Below, piece after piece: positions 9,692 through 31,764 of a stretch of DNA of 38,036 nucleotides (the first letter of the stretch is position 1; the number at the start of each line of letters is the position of its first letter). The translations under genes were made by a program, and so were the position numbers. The notes under the pieces were generated by a model that had not been told where the DNA came from, searched no databases, and saw nothing but the letters and a program-made list of their open reading frames with translations. Source of the stretch: Flavobacteriales bacterium BRH_c54 (GTDB lineage Bacteria > Bacteroidota > Bacteroidia > Flavobacteriales_E > Vicingaceae); the NCBI GenBank assembly GCA_000961845.1, contig LADZ01000061.1, positions 1-38,036 on the forward strand, given 5' to 3'.

Positions 9692-10080
9692 GGGTTAAAT
9701 TCTTTTTCATATCATTTTTAAAGTACCAAACAGCTGCACTTATAGCTACTATGGTAGATTTTGGCGTATTTTTTTTATTGAAAGATGTGTTTCATATTTG
9801 GTATGTTTATGCAACAGCTATAGGTGCTTTAACAGGAGCTATTATCAACTTTATTTTGTGTAGAAATTGGGCTTTTTCTGCAAGAGAGAAAAAATTAGTA
9901 AACCAAATCGGTAGGTACATTATGGTGTCCTTAGGAAGTTTATTACTTAATACTGTTTTGGTTTATGTAATTACAGAGTTATTTAAAATACATGAAAATT
10001 ATTCGAGAGTAATGACAGCAATTTTGGTAGCGGTTACTTATAACTTTACCTTGCAAAAATATTTTGTTTTCAAAAAATAA
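9688..10080 (+). CDS. GtrA-family membrane protein
   Basis: A 130-residue protein with four hydrophobic segments and the GtrA pattern: an early ALIATMVDFGVFFLL, then GALTGAIINFILCRNWAF and a last segment ending NFTLQKYFVF. GtrA proteins are thought to help move polyprenyl-phosphate-linked sugars across the inner membrane for glycan modification. The start is TTG at 9688, which overlaps the pgpA stop. The only nearby ATG (9751) would remove most of the first membrane segment, so the TTG start is preferred. No glycosyltransferase partner is adjacent, so the linked sugar is unknown. Confidence 0.85.
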   Translation: MRVKFFFISFLKYQTAALIATMVDFGVFFLLKDVFHIWYVYATAIGALTGAIINFILCRNWAFSAREKKLVNQIGRYIMVSLGSLLLNTVLVYVITELFKIHENYSRVMTAILVAVTYNFTLQKYFVFKK

Positions 10081-10122
10081 TTTTTAATGACTAAAATCAT
10101 TAGCTAAGTTAAATCAATCCAT

Positions 10123-10130
10123 TACTTTTG
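10123..10130 (+). promoter_or_regulatory. -7 element for the DUF4920 gene
   Basis: TACTTTTG matches TAnnTTTG exactly and lies 34 bases before the ATG at 10165. Confidence 0.5.
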
Positions 10131-10164
10131 TTAATCAATTCGTTAAAACATTAAAAATATACCT

Positions 10165-10683
10165 ATGAAGAAATTAATTTTTATTTTATCAACAGTTGTA
10201 TTAGTAGCTTGCCAGGAAAATAATAAAGAACAAGAAAAAGAAGTAGTAAGTGAGGAAATAGAAGTAATCGTAACCAAACACGGAATGGATATTACTGAAG
10301 AAGGAGCTATTACAGCTGCAGAATTTTTAGCTCAATTTGAAGGCAAAGATTCATTATATACTAAACTAATTGCTCCTATTAATGAAGTATGTGCTAAAAA
10401 AGGTTGCTGGATGACAATTAACTTAGGCGATGATAAAGATATGCGTGTAACATTTAAAGATTATGATTTTTTTGTACCTAAAGATGCCGCAGGAAGATTT
10501 GCAATTGTACAAGGTTTTGCAAAAATTGATACCACATCTGTAGCAACATTAAAACATTATTTAGAAGATGCAGAAGCTTCGCAAGAAGAGATTGATGCAG
10601 TTACAGAACCAGAAATTAATTATTCTTTTGAAGCCGAAGGTGTAATTATTAAAGAGGAAAAGTTAATTACGAAAGGAGAATAA
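10165..10683 (+). CDS. DUF4920-type lipoprotein
   Basis: A 172-residue predicted lipoprotein. The signal peptide ends in lipobox LVAC with Cys16, followed by a Glu/Lys-rich linker (17-36) and a compact domain (about 37-165). Within it the pattern VCAKKGCWM (Cys76, Cys81) is the most distinctive feature and resembles the conserved cysteine pair of DUF4920 (PF16267). The pair could bind a metal or form a disulphide, but function is not established. The next gene, a c-heme lipoprotein, starts 18 bases after its stop. A strong terminator hairpin lies just downstream, inside that gene, so this gene may often be transcribed alone. Confidence 0.8.
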   Translation: MKKLIFILSTVVLVACQENNKEQEKEVVSEEIEVIVTKHGMDITEEGAITAAEFLAQFEGKDSLYTKLIAPINEVCAKKGCWMTINLGDDKDMRVTFKDYDFFVPKDAAGRFAIVQGFAKIDTTSVATLKHYLEDAEASQEEIDAVTEPEINYSFEAEGVIIKEEKLITKGE

Positions 10684-10701
10684 AACTTAATAATATTAAT
10701 A

Positions 10702-11172
10702 ATGACTACATTCATTAAAAATAGATATATCCCGACTATTATTTTCGGGATATTTTTTTTCATTATATCATGTGCTGATATAACAACAGAACAAGTAATT
10801 AATGAAGAAGTAACTACTGAAGTAGTTGACAATCATCCGAACAAAGATAGCGAGTTGGCTTTACTAATGCGAAAAATGTATAACGATGCCGATAGTATTA
10901 AACAGCTTATTGTAAACGATGAGGGAAATATTTCTAAGGAATACATTGAAGCGTTAGAAAGAATACATACTGCAACTCCAACAGATGCAGATGTTAAGAC
11001 ACCTGAATTTAAAGCCTATACCGAATTGATGATTAATGAGGCGAATACTCTTTTTTCCAATCCAGAAAACAAAAAAGAAGGCTTTAATAATTTGGTAAAC
11101 AAATGTGTGGAATGTCATCAATCTTTCTGTCCAGGACCAATAAAAAAGATTAATAAGCTACGAATTAATTAG
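10702..11172 (+). CDS. Small c-heme lipoprotein (CxxCH)
   Basis: A 156-residue protein. The predicted lipoprotein signal ends in IISC (Cys24), followed by an acidic linker to about residue 50 and a mainly helical domain. The single heme-attachment motif CVECH (135-139) lies near the C-terminus with a further Cys143 in SFCPGPIKK. A C-terminal CxxCH after a helical body recalls the cytochrome c' layout, and similar small proteins occur in Flavobacteria. Electron transfer or sensing at the envelope is inference. An intrinsic-terminator-like hairpin with eight T residues (10727-10760) lies within codons 9-20, overlapping the signal peptide. No downstream ATG would keep a signal sequence, so the ATG at 10702 stands if the product is exported. 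Confidence 0.75.
   Translation: MTTFIKNRYIPTIIFGIFFFIISCADITTEQVINEEVTTEVVDNHPNKDSELALLMRKMYNDADSIKQLIVNDEGNISKEYIEALERIHTATPTDADVKTPEFKAYTELMINEANTLFSNPENKKEGFNNLVNKCVECHQSFCPGPIKKINKLRIN
10727..10760 (+). terminator. Intrinsic terminator inside the c-heme lipoprotein's signal-peptide codons
   Basis: Arms ATATCCCGA (10727-10735) and TCGGGATAT (10745-10753) pair perfectly over nine bases around a nine-base loop, and eight consecutive T follow from 10753 to 10760. It sits 44 bases after the DUF4920 stop, where that gene's terminator would be expected, yet also 25 bases inside the next reading frame. Confidence 0.7.
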
Positions 11173-11173
11173 C

Positions 11174-11225
11174 GATTAGAAATTTGATATTAAAGATTCT
11201 GCGATAATCAGCGTTATCTGTGGGA
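11174..11225. repeat. Degenerate intergenic repeat debris
   Basis: The convergent gap after the c-heme gene holds GATTAGAAATT (11174-11184), TGATATTAAAGATT (11185-11198) and TCTGCGATAA (11198-11207), followed by the related TCAGCGTTA and TCTGTGGGA. GATTAGAAATT recurs inverted at 26326-26336, and the other two elements recur at 13807-13846. It resembles dispersed non-coding repeats seen between Flavobacteriales genes. Confidence 0.4.
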
Positions 11226-11234
11226 GAAACGTCA

Positions 11235-12650
11235 TCACTTTTTCATAAAACCTTCAGATTTTGCGATAACAGAGGAAACCGTGATATCTCCGGTAACATT
11301 TACTACTGTCCGCATCATATCTAAAATTCTGTCTACAGGAAAAATAATAGCTATCCAAGCGGGATTTAAACCAACAGCATCTAACACGATCATTAACATT
11401 ACTAAACCTGCACTAGGAACAGCCGCAGAACCAATTGAAGCTAAGGTAGCAGTAGCTACAATAGTAAGTTGTTGAGCCATGTCTAAATCTATTAAATGAA
11501 TTTGAGCCAAATAAATTACAGCTACAGACTGGTAAAGACTTGTTCCGTCCATGTTTACTGTTGCCCCAATTGGTAAGACAAAGCTAGAAACTTCTTCAGG
11601 TACTTTTAAATTATCGTTTACGCACTCCATAGTAATAGGAAGTGTAGCGGCACTAGAACTTGATGAAAAAGCCAATAGTTGAGCAGGGCTAATTTTTTTG
11701 AACAGCGTAGTGTAACCAATTTTCAAAACTTTTGTCATAATAAGCGGATAAACAACAAAAACCAAAAATGCCAAGCCAATTACAACCACTATGCTGTACC
11801 ATCCTAAATTTATAATAATTTCCTGGATAGCTTTAGGATCGTCACCTGCCATTTCGCTTAGTTTTGCAGCCATCAATGCAAAAACAAAAAATGGAGCAGC
11901 TTTCATTACAATATCCACCATTTTTAAGAATACTTCATTAAAGCCATCAATAATTCCGGCAACATTATCAGCTTTCTTTTTGTTTATTGTAAGTAAAACA
12001 ACACCAAAAAAGATGGCAAAAAAGATAATTTGTAGCATTAGTTTATTGTCTGCCAACGAAACAAAAATATTTGAAGGAACCATATCAATTAAAAAAGCCA
12101 ATGGACCAGCTTCTTTTGTTTTTCTGGCTTCTTGTTGGCGTTTAGCTATATTTGGATCTGTTGTGGCTATAGACTTATCAAATTCATATTGTTGAGAAGC
12201 ATCATCAACTAAGTTTTTATAATCCGGATTGGTAAGGTAAGATTGATGGTCTTTAATAATGATGTTATTTTCTTGAGCCCAAAGCTCATAGGTTATTCTG
12301 TTTTTTACTCGCTGATTTTCATCTAAATACTTGCCCGGCTTAATAACGTTTACCAACACTAATCCTAAGCTTACCGCAAAAACAGTGGTTAATAAATAAA
12401 TGCCAAGTGTTTTTACTCCAACTCTTCCTAAGCGTTTTATGTCAGATAATCCTGATATACCAACAATTATAGAGAATAAAACTAAAGGAATAGCAATTAA
12501 TTTTAATAAATTGATGAAGATTTCACCCCACGGAGCAATCCAGTTTTTGGTAAAAGTGCTCCATCCAAAATTGGCAGAAATGTAAGCCCAAATAATACCT
12601 AATAGTAAGCCAATGATTATTTTCCAGTGTAAAGCTAGTTTCTTCTTCAT
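11235..12650 (-). CDS. Dicarboxylate/amino acid:cation symporter (DAACS)
   Basis: A 471-residue inner-membrane sodium- or proton-coupled symporter of the GltP/DctA family. The serine-rich re-entrant hairpin reads SSSSAATLPITMECV, and NMDGTSLYQ is the helix-7 NMDGT substrate/cation motif. A further re-entrant loop is ASIGSAAVPSAG. Between the third and fourth membrane segments is a long hydrophilic insert (about residues 107-180), which accounts for the protein being longer than the usual 410-440. Glutamate, aspartate or C4-dicarboxylates are the likely substrates; the sequence alone does not decide which. It begins 2 bases after the aroC stop, so the two are co-transcribed. Confidence 0.93.
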   Translation of the reverse strand: MKKKLALHWKIIIGLLLGIIWAYISANFGWSTFTKNWIAPWGEIFINLLKLIAIPLVLFSIIVGISGLSDIKRLGRVGVKTLGIYLLTTVFAVSLGLVLVNVIKPGKYLDENQRVKNRITYELWAQENNIIIKDHQSYLTNPDYKNLVDDASQQYEFDKSIATTDPNIAKRQQEARKTKEAGPLAFLIDMVPSNIFVSLADNKLMLQIIFFAIFFGVVLLTINKKKADNVAGIIDGFNEVFLKMVDIVMKAAPFFVFALMAAKLSEMAGDDPKAIQEIIINLGWYSIVVVIGLAFLVFVVYPLIMTKVLKIGYTTLFKKISPAQLLAFSSSSSAATLPITMECVNDNLKVPEEVSSFVLPIGATVNMDGTSLYQSVAVIYLAQIHLIDLDMAQQLTIVATATLASIGSAAVPSAGLVMLMIVLDAVGLNPAWIAIIFPVDRILDMMRTVVNVTGDITVSSVIAKSEGFMKK

Positions 12651-29475: not shown

Positions 29476-31764
29476 ATGAAAGTTTGCATTGCCGAAAAAC
29501 CCAGTGTAGCCAGAGAAATTGCCAGTGTGCTTGGTGCTAATACTAAGCGAGATGGTTATTTTGAAGGCAATGGTTATGCAGTAACTTACACTTTCGGACA
29601 TTTATGTACTCTTTTTGAACCACACGATTATAAAGATTATTGGAAAAGTTGGAATTTGAACAACTTGCCTATGTTGCCTGAAAAATTTAAAACCAAAGTG
29701 GTTGACAATTCAGGAATTCAAAAGCAGTTCAACATTGTAAAAACTTTATTTGATAATGCTACTTTAGTTATCAACTGTGGTGATGCCGGACAAGAGGGAG
29801 AGCTTATTCAGCGTTGGGTATTAGAGCAAGCAGGGTATAAAGGAGAAGTGAAACGATTATGGATTTCCTCATTAACTACTGAAGCCATTAAAGAAGGTTT
29901 TGACAACTTAAAACCTTCGGAAAAATATGATAATTTATATTATGCCGGGTTTTCCAGAGCTATAGGAGATTGGTTGTTGGGAATGAATGCTACTCGCTTA
30001 TATACTATTAAACATGGCGGTTACAAACAAGTATTATCTATAGGAAGAGTACAAACGCCAACATTAGCAATGGTAGTAAACAGGTTTAAAGAAATAGAAA
30101 ACTTTAAGCCAACACTTTTTTGGGAGTTACAAACGCTTTACAGAGATATCTTATTTAATTGCGAAGAAGGCAGGTTCTTAAAAAAAGAAGATGGAGAAAA
30201 GTTAGCTAATAAAGTTAAAGAGAGTGATTTTGAAATTGTTTCAGTAGAAAAAAAGAAAGGGAAAGAATATGCTCCAAAGTTGTTTGATTTAACAGGTTTA
30301 CAGGTTTACTGTAATAATAAATTTGGTTTTTCTGCTGACGATACCCTTAAAACCGTTCAAAAACTTTACGAGCAAAAGGTAGTAACTTACCCAAGGGTGG
30401 ACACTACATTTTTACCAAATGATGTTTATCCGAAAGTAAAAGGTATTTTGGAAAAATTGACTAACTACCAGCAATTAACGCAACCTTTATTAGGAAAGAA
30501 AATTAGAAAATCATCTAAAGTATTTAATGATAAAAAAGTTACCGATCACCATGCTATTATACCAACAGGTGTTCAGAATTCATTAAGTCTGCATGAGCAA
30601 AAGGTTTATGATATAATTGTAAGACGTTTTATAGCTGTTTTTTATGAAGATTGTTCTGTAGATAATACAGCAGTTATTGGTAAAGCAGCCGATGTAACTT
30701 TTAAAACAACAGGCAAAGTAATTACCGAAAAAGGGTGGAGGGTAGTTTTTGAAATTTCCGGAGCTGAAGAAAAAGAACCTGATGTACTTCCGACTTTTAA
30801 GAAAGGCGAAAAAGGACCACATGAGCCAAGTTTTTTGGAGAAAGAAACAAAGCCACCAAAAATGTTTACCGAAGCAACTTTATTAAGAGCTATGGAAACT
30901 GCCGGTAAGCAAGTTGATGATGAAGAATTACGAGAATTGATGAAAGAAAACGGAATAGGAAGGCCATCTACTAGAGCAAACATTATAGAAACCTTATTTA
31001 AGCGTAAATATATTGTAAGAAATAAAAAACAGCTTTTACCAACAACTACAGGTATTCAACTGATAGATACTATAAAAAATAAAATTCTTACTTCAGCAGA
31101 GTTAACAGGTACTTGGGAGAAGCAACTTCAAGAAATTGAAAAAGGTAAATACAATGCAGGTACTTTTATCAAGAACATGAAAAAAATGGTAGATGACTTG
31201 GTGTATGAAGTAAGGATGGAGCAAAATAGTGCTCAGATATCTCATGTAACGCATCAAGCAGAAACGAAAATTAAAAAGAAAACATCTGGAATTGAAACCA
31301 CAATATGTCCTAAATGTAAAAAAGGTAACATGCTTAAAGGAAAAACTGCTTATGGTTGCAGTGAATATTCTAATGGATGTAAATTTCTTCTGCCGTTTAT
31401 TTTTCAAGAAAAGAAATTAACCGAGAAACAAATCCTTCAAATATTAAAAAAAGGAAAATCAACAGTTATAAAAGGTTTTAAACACAATGGTGAAAAAATA
31501 GATGGAGTGTTGAGTTTGAATGAGCAGTTTGAATTGGTGTTAACTCCAAGATCAGCAAAGAAAAAGAATGTTGCTAAAATCAATATTTTAATTTGTCCGA
31601 AATGTAAAAAAGGAGAGATTATAAAAGGCAAAACCGCCTATGGTTGCAGCGAATATAAAAATGGTTGCGATTTTCTTTATTCATTTGAAGATGTTAGAAA
31701 ACAAGCAGCAGATAAACCATTAACCAAAGAGTTGGTGGTGGAGATTCTCTCGGGTAATAATTAA
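29476..31764 (+). CDS. topB: DNA topoisomerase III (type IA)
   Basis: A 762-residue type IA topoisomerase. The toprim domain (1-about 140) holds Glu7 in CIAEKPSVA and CGDAGQEGEL. The active-site tyrosine is Tyr305 in VTYPRVDTTFLP, and GIGRPSTRANIIETL lies in domain IV. After the core (about 1-580), two near-identical zinc-ribbon units, CPKCKKGNMLKGKTAYGC and CPKCKKGEIIKGKTAYGC, each end NGC and follow one another with a TopB C-terminal repeat between. In the toprim motif the second acidic position of D-x-D is Gly105 (D-A-G-Q-E-G-E), a variant I recall in other Bacteroidota TopB proteins. It decatenates single-strand-bearing DNA. It follows the HsdR-N-like gene by 40 bases. Confidence 0.95.
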   Translation: MKVCIAEKPSVAREIASVLGANTKRDGYFEGNGYAVTYTFGHLCTLFEPHDYKDYWKSWNLNNLPMLPEKFKTKVVDNSGIQKQFNIVKTLFDNATLVINCGDAGQEGELIQRWVLEQAGYKGEVKRLWISSLTTEAIKEGFDNLKPSEKYDNLYYAGFSRAIGDWLLGMNATRLYTIKHGGYKQVLSIGRVQTPTLAMVVNRFKEIENFKPTLFWELQTLYRDILFNCEEGRFLKKEDGEKLANKVKESDFEIVSVEKKKGKEYAPKLFDLTGLQVYCNNKFGFSADDTLKTVQKLYEQKVVTYPRVDTTFLPNDVYPKVKGILEKLTNYQQLTQPLLGKKIRKSSKVFNDKKVTDHHAIIPTGVQNSLSLHEQKVYDIIVRRFIAVFYEDCSVDNTAVIGKAADVTFKTTGKVITEKGWRVVFEISGAEEKEPDVLPTFKKGEKGPHEPSFLEKETKPPKMFTEATLLRAMETAGKQVDDEELRELMKENGIGRPSTRANIIETLFKRKYIVRNKKQLLPTTTGIQLIDTIKNKILTSAELTGTWEKQLQEIEKGKYNAGTFIKNMKKMVDDLVYEVRMEQNSAQISHVTHQAETKIKKKTSGIETTICPKCKKGNMLKGKTAYGCSEYSNGCKFLLPFIFQEKKLTEKQILQILKKGKSTVIKGFKHNGEKIDGVLSLNEQFELVLTPRSAKKKNVAKINILICPKCKKGEIIKGKTAYGCSEYKNGCDFLYSFEDVRKQAADKPLTKELVVEILSGNN

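Follow-up and report, generated by a model that had tools for sequence, protein, structure and literature searches.

A putative leaky terminator read as signal-peptide codons of a candidate cytochrome lipoprotein gene downstream of DUF4920 in the Vicingaceae

Sequence comparison suggests that a hairpin followed by eight T residues, found behind the DUF4920 gene of Flavobacteriales bacterium BRH_c54, is probably a real, selected and leaky terminator of the DUF4920 transcript that the next gene reads as codons. The window referred to throughout is the whole 38,036-nt stretch of DNA that was analysed. In the mechanism proposed here, the hairpin and T8 would act as an intrinsic terminator where the two genes of one transcript, DUF4920 and then the cytochrome lipoprotein, meet, and part, probably most, of the DUF4920 transcripts would end ∼75 nt after the stop codon. 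The frame of the second gene would begin before the hairpin and run through it, the same bases supplying the hydrophobic core of its signal peptide, and full-length cytochrome mRNA would arise only from RNA polymerases escaping termination, a built-in brake (leaky attenuator) expected to hold cytochrome output below DUF4920 output. Termination by RNA polymerase at the hairpin, its frequency, and the output ratio as the selected trait are what we infer from this arrangement. Because the hairpin lies inside the coding sequence, past any promoter upstream of the ATG, any full-length cytochrome mRNA would be a readthrough product; the proposal of an earlier, sequence-only reading that the gene is transcribed only by readthrough thus follows from the geometry. 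The same position within the frame makes the main conclusion independent of the promoter, and if the hairpin terminates at all, the second gene is limited.

The rightward gene run in the window comprises PgpA, GtrA, DUF4920 and a 156-aa lipoprotein. The DUF4920 protein (PF16267; 108.8 bits against a Pfam cut-off of 25) is encoded at 10165–10683 on the plus strand, and no paper on DUF4920 was found in the PMC literature. The lipoprotein gene follows on the same strand at 10702–11172, with its ATG at 10702 and a signal peptide that extends to the lipobox Cys at codon 24 (codons 1–24, 10702–10773; direct reading and homologue alignment). The c-heme label given to this protein by the sequence-only reading is supported by a single haem-binding motif, CVECHQ, in which CVECH occupies residues 135–139 of 156, near the C end of a helical bundle; the predicted structure has five helices (pLDDT 91.4). 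The score for Pfam Cytochrom_C_2 (PF01322), 17.2 bits, stays below the cut-off of 26.5, the best Foldseek match to the model was a cytochrome c′ at E 0.62, with none at E 0.001 or better, and NCBIfam returned no match for the protein, which we tentatively describe as a cytochrome c′-like lipoprotein. Together with its homologues, the product of 10702–11172 apparently belongs to an unnamed lipoprotein family with the motifs DSELALLMR and CxxCHQxxCPGP. The Bacteroidota −7 promoter consensus is TAnnTTTG. Upstream of DUF4920, TACTTTTG at 10123–10130 (plus strand) is the only match to this pattern in 10081–10164, the plus strand of the whole window holding 31; none was found in 10165–10701, between the start of DUF4920 and the cytochrome ATG. 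Two further elements were seen in the window. The sequence TCTGCGATAATCAGCGTTATCTGTGGGA lies at 11198–11225 between convergent genes, and the rest of the genome has one further copy, carrying 2 mismatches, at G000:C22:18565. An imperfect hairpin followed by TTATTTTG occurs at 29522–29555 and at L160:12656–12689, and also in G004, at the 5′ end of a gene starting MKVCIAEKPSVAREIASVLG.

Reading of the plus strand together with RNAfold placed the left stem arm (ATATCCCGA) at 10727–10735 in codons 9–12, a 9-nt loop (CTATTATTT) at 10736–10744, and the right arm (TCGGGATAT) at 10745–10753 in codons 15–18. The T tract, read directly, spans 10753–10760 in codons 18–20 and encodes part of the FFF core, base 10753 being both the last paired base of the stem and the first T of the run. 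By direct reading the 9-bp stem is perfect over 10727–10753, loop included, which confirms the earlier description of a 9-bp stem, 9-nt loop and T8 inside codons 9–20 of a c-heme lipoprotein gene. The stem starts 43 nt past the DUF4920 stop codon (which ends at 10683) and 25 nt after the cytochrome start codon, and codons 1–24 of the cytochrome gene hold no in-frame stop before 10760; the window's peptide in this region reads IPTIIFGIFFF. A conserved lipoprotein frame that is translated would therefore run into the terminator, and 10727–10760 has the stable hairpin with a T tract directly 3′ that defines intrinsic terminators. Folding of 10715–10765 gave −11.5 kcal/mol, compared with −4.84 (sd 2.15) for shuffled sequences (z −3.10), none of 200 shuffles being as low. 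A simple terminator scan that allowed loops of only 3–8 nt passed over the site, and found 5 sites in 20 kb where 8.0 were expected in shuffles. The site is the sole strict match in the first 105 nt of any called open reading frame (ORF) in the window plus twenty 20-kb same-genus stretches, while a looser scan of this sample matched 18 of 329 ORFs; with no second strict case in the window and 400 kb of same-genus genome, a genus-wide habit was rejected. Synonymous recoding of the start of the window's gene produced a strict terminator in a fraction of 0.02 of 100 draws. The minus strand is unlikely to hold a leftward terminator, since the stem is followed there only by ATCTATTTTT and by no direct T run. 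A search of 10000–11400 against Rfam gave 7 matches up to E 5, none close to its own gathering score.

Among named records the closest are Flavobacteriales bacterium UBA2669 and isolate N3M-Bin_4, at 94 and 95% protein identity, followed by metagenome-assembled genomes such as a Vicingaceae bacterium at 73% protein identity, and the cytochrome lipoprotein gene was found in 30 of 46 genomes of the family. Close relatives with an intact gene and no stem would, among other things, have spoken against the sequence-only reading, which was upheld for the most part: the hairpin occurs in 6/6 genomes of the window's genus, 3/4 of g4, 8/9 of g13 and 1/1 of g6, but one g4 genome (L044) and one g13 genome (L047) keep the gene and lack the hairpin. 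It is also absent from nine other examined family members; a tenth (G013), cut at the 5′ side, fell outside the comparison. A wider set was assembled from 80 of 142 relatives, the window and eight family loci, giving 89 loci, or 84 after removal of five duplicates, with genes and signal peptides called by crude scripts rather than by Prodigal or SignalP. Folding to −9 kcal/mol or below with a T-rich tail selected 25 unique loci, from which L073, L077 and L113 were dropped as imperfect; L040 and L041 were kept despite imperfect stems, their outer arms matching the same-genus hairpin. A clean hairpin with T tract in the signal-peptide codons was thus counted in 22 of 84 unique loci. Type A hairpins (g1 and g4; ATCCCGA..TCGGGAT) end 17–21 nt before the Cys codon and encode IP...GIF, and type B hairpins (g13, g6, L050, L062 and L092; GGGATGC..GCATCCC and variants) end 9–11 nt before it and encode G-C/Y ... 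A/V/T-S/P; the L111 hairpin is a third kind. Both arms have changed together in L051/L036 (AGGGTGTC..GACACCCT), and the amino acids with them. In three same-genus genomes (L039–L041) the inner loop has been enlarged by small palindromes, the outer arms and the frame being kept. A later start codon, which would leave the hairpin in the 5′ UTR, was rejected since the lipobox needs the hairpin codons; L014 and L051 have only GTG or TTG starts upstream of the stem.

Presence of the hairpin follows the upstream gene. Of 46 loci that have DUF4920 upstream, 21 embed the hairpin, as against none of the 36 that lack DUF4920 there; two loci at contig ends were left uncounted. Because those 36 loci include no clean case, we rejected the idea that the hairpin characterizes the cytochrome family as a whole. 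On a tree the comparison becomes 20/43 against 0/36 (Fisher 5e-7), of which kinship accounts for part, only two independent pairs being available on well-supported branches. Resolution on this tree is poor (stars on 15 of 78 inner branches; L103, L111 and L116 fell out), so gains are not separable from losses. Within the 21 loci the stem starts 6–43 nt after the DUF4920 stop, most commonly at 18 nt (8/21).

These distances bear on the possibility of antitermination controlled by a ribosome, in which the stem would be kept open by a ribosome, either translating the early cytochrome codons or completing DUF4920, so that cytochrome transcription reports translation or export status, as in the pyrBI and pil1 leaders. 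According to PMC4824070, a trailing ribosome in E. coli represses terminators within ∼27 nt of an upstream stop, and 15 of the 21 stems lie 6–21 nt past the DUF4920 stop, within that range; in Streptococcus gallolyticus pil1, moreover, a terminator is opened when a long leader peptide is translated (PMC3894217). The window's own spacing, however, is 43 nt, and the spacing as such is not special, because ordinary terminators of its kin sit at similar distances from stop codons (6–66 nt). In E. coli, terminators located in the opening 100 bp of a frame are efficient, and translation took away only ∼10% of the efficiency of one placed 30 bp after the start codon (PMC4824070). These results point to a leaky junction terminator rather than to masking by the cytochrome's own ribosome, and the suggestion of the sequence-only reading that ribosomes on the early codons mask the hairpin is not supported. 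For opening the stem, the ribosome that completes DUF4920 is plausibly a better candidate than one on the early codons at the 15 loci with short spacing, and less so in the window. On balance antitermination of this kind appears unlikely, though it is the strongest of the alternatives. A point against the leaky terminator is that transcripts ending at the hairpin would leave the second frame without a stop codon; this is a cost observed in PMC4824070.

That the palindrome may act as a terminator is suggested by its occurrence elsewhere in related genomes. The signature ATCCCG..CGGGAT-T is present in 57 of 100 of these, the reversed control giving two matches in total. Where context was read (31 sites at 30 loci), 28 sites were noncoding, of which 18 lie 6–66 nt past a same-strand stop and 10 have no such stop within 150 nt; the 3 coding sites are the cytochrome gene in the window's genus. 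Clean post-stop terminators were found for 10 of 329 genes in the window and same-genus sample, the cytochrome-gene hairpin included, and this hairpin has the weakest energy of the ten (−10.6 compared with a median of −16.35), as would fit a leaky terminator. The base of its stem is A-T rich, and with the weak energy this means that it may hardly terminate. The hairpin could accordingly be kept for another RNA role, such as 3′-end or message stability, processing, or slower early translation, with no useful termination; besides the weakest stem energy of the sample, the inner loops and imperfect stems of L040 and L041 point in this direction. Against it, a T tract follows the stem in all 22 clean loci (having been required for their selection), and copies of the palindrome with T tract are mostly located behind genes. 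We regard such a role as improbable.

An origin of the arrangement by chance, or from a mobile palindrome, might be expected in signal-peptide codons, which are T-rich in AT-rich genomes, and the small palindromes that have enlarged the inner loops of L039–L041 are of the same tenor. Strict terminators in the first 105 nt, however, occur in 12 of 69 called cytochrome genes against 0.24 expected when codons were resampled synonymously with the codon usage of each locus. This count comes from a strict ORF scan that misses inner loops, far starts and cases lacking an ATG (L039–L041, L045, L048, L051 and L111) and did not take in L009, L014 and L019. In a plain MAFFT alignment of the 12 type B hairpins all 96 cells pair, which alone proves little because the rows were chosen for folding; 5 of the 8 pairs have changed on both sides, a number reached by 2 of 500 shuffles, and covariation was 0.403, compared with 0.205 in shuffles and no more than 0.180 for slid partners. 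The synonymous resampling, rather than the covariation rows, is the independent test of selection. The comparison of homologous signal-peptide DNA that the sequence-only reading had called for thus found stem pairing conserved, with compensatory changes at those five pairs, and its idea of two roles for one sequence gains from the fact that pairing was kept through changes on both sides, some of which alter amino acids. Relative to its two closest kin, the window shows 0 codon differences in codons 1–24, against differences at 41 of 130 codons beginning with codon 26 and at 60 of 172 codons of DUF4920; this quiet zone is modest support only, because the last DUF4920 codons are likewise quiet in part of the comparisons. 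Taken together, these comparisons of sequence indicate that the hairpin structure is kept by selection. Chance or a mobile repeat is largely refuted for the family by the synonymous recoding and the paired changes, and ATCCCGA..TCGGGAT stands at only 2 places in the whole genome; we consider either origin very improbable.

A hairpin next to a homopolymer favours slippage, and both are present here, so that RNA polymerase might slip on the T8 behind the hairpin and yield frameshifted products; the T runs of the homologues, however, differ in length and are often broken (TTTTCTTT, TTTTTGTT, TTTTTTAT) with the frame kept, and this explanation has very little to recommend it.

Similar overlaps were sought in other genes. 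In a 1.45-Mb set, 7 of 384 other called genes with a signal peptide had strict matches (0.34 expected), compared with 1 of 536 genes without a hydrophobic start (0.44 expected) and 2 of 145 membrane genes (0.22 expected). A further 400 kb gave 2 of 101 signal-peptide genes (0.07 expected; one of the two, L228, resembles a membrane protein more), 0 of 161 without a hydrophobic start and 0 of 38 membrane genes. The nine signal-peptide matches are partly homologous to each other (L103/L116, L055/L059) and the sample is non-random, with many loci around DUF4920, making the rate indicative only. Terminators in signal-peptide codons were likewise seen in the second genes of DUF1573 pairs, in L190–L192 (with changed arms) and in L195, near position 1500 of these loci, the first gene's stop lying 26–39 nt upstream; the L195 hairpin is quite different and encodes SIPYILFLYGIFFF, close to the window's IPTIIFGIFFF. 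The DUF1573 search covered 30 loci, 4 of which the script did not resolve, and found a clean hairpin in the signal peptide in 4 of the 26 others, many of which are not second genes of a pair.

Several single cases were noted in addition. At L239:7221 a perfect 11-bp terminator with T8 falls in signal-peptide codons; the gene encodes an exported protein of 166 aa, and its ATG overlaps the preceding gene, which encodes 843 aa. Look-alike palindromes (AAGCGGA..TTCGCTT with T tract) stand in signal peptides at L055:2207, L059:1853 and L058:979 (SG..LI.SLLFF); the palindrome-bearing genes of L058 and of L055/L059 look unrelated, and a similar palindrome is intergenic in L169. The signal peptides of two lipoproteins, at L072:4364 and L176:1188, contain a terminator-like hairpin, 34 and 9 nt, respectively, after the upstream gene, which in L072 is the cytochrome homologue. 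A recurrent Bacteroidota arrangement may exist, and we raise it as a tentative generalization on which the odds are somewhat adverse: the signal peptide of a second, exported gene would be written across the first gene's terminator, stem and U-tract forming the hydrophobic core and all full-length messages being readthrough, as a built-in dosage brake on exported proteins. It would have arisen more than once, in cytochrome lipoproteins behind DUF4920 (two types), in second DUF1573 genes, and in the single cases L239, L176, L072, L055/L059 and L058.

If these readings hold, one sequence is apparently held by selection as both terminator and Sec signal peptide, with paired changes altering the protein, and this group of uncultured bacteria might make the second protein only if transcription gets past a probable stop that doubles as its export signal. 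For Bacteroidota, the arrangement would provide a natural setting in which to measure how intrinsic termination proceeds ahead of ribosomes, and its signature, a second gene whose signal peptide contains a hairpin and T tract, would be simple to search for in genomes. It would also be a warning for gene finders and terminator predictors that exclude coding DNA.

Known terminators inside reading frames are mostly those of leader peptides and ribosome-rescue factors; in pyrBI/pyrL, the leader peptide works together with pausing of transcription and control by UTP. None in signal-peptide codons was described in the titles or abstract beginnings among the PMC matches listed, which leave out subscription papers; many putative terminators predicted inside ORFs are mentioned in PMC4824070. 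The nearest precedents are brfA, pil1 and pyrBI. In the E. coli pyrBI/pyrL attenuator, as in the window, an intrinsic terminator lies inside a translated frame (PMC5021804). The S. gallolyticus pil1 leader resembles the present case in that a frame runs into or through a terminator before an exported product, but there it is a separate leader peptide with repeat-driven frame switching (PMC3894217), whereas here it is the structural gene's own signal peptide. Bacillus subtilis brfA shares an intrinsic terminator inside a coding region, demonstrated by synonymous mutations and a downstream reporter (PMC6881298); its terminator lies late in the frame and the shortened product is the functional one, whereas here the cut would come before the lipobox Cys and protein would be made only by readthrough. 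A truncated product like that of BrfA was rejected for the window, where the T run stops at codon 20 and a cut there would leave out both Cys 24 and the entire haem domain. Closest in geometry to the leaky junction terminator proposed here is the E. coli tR2 construct W48, which stays efficient with its terminator after an upstream gene and 30 bp after the start (here 25 nt), but which is an artificial plasmid in another phylum with no signal peptide (PMC4824070).
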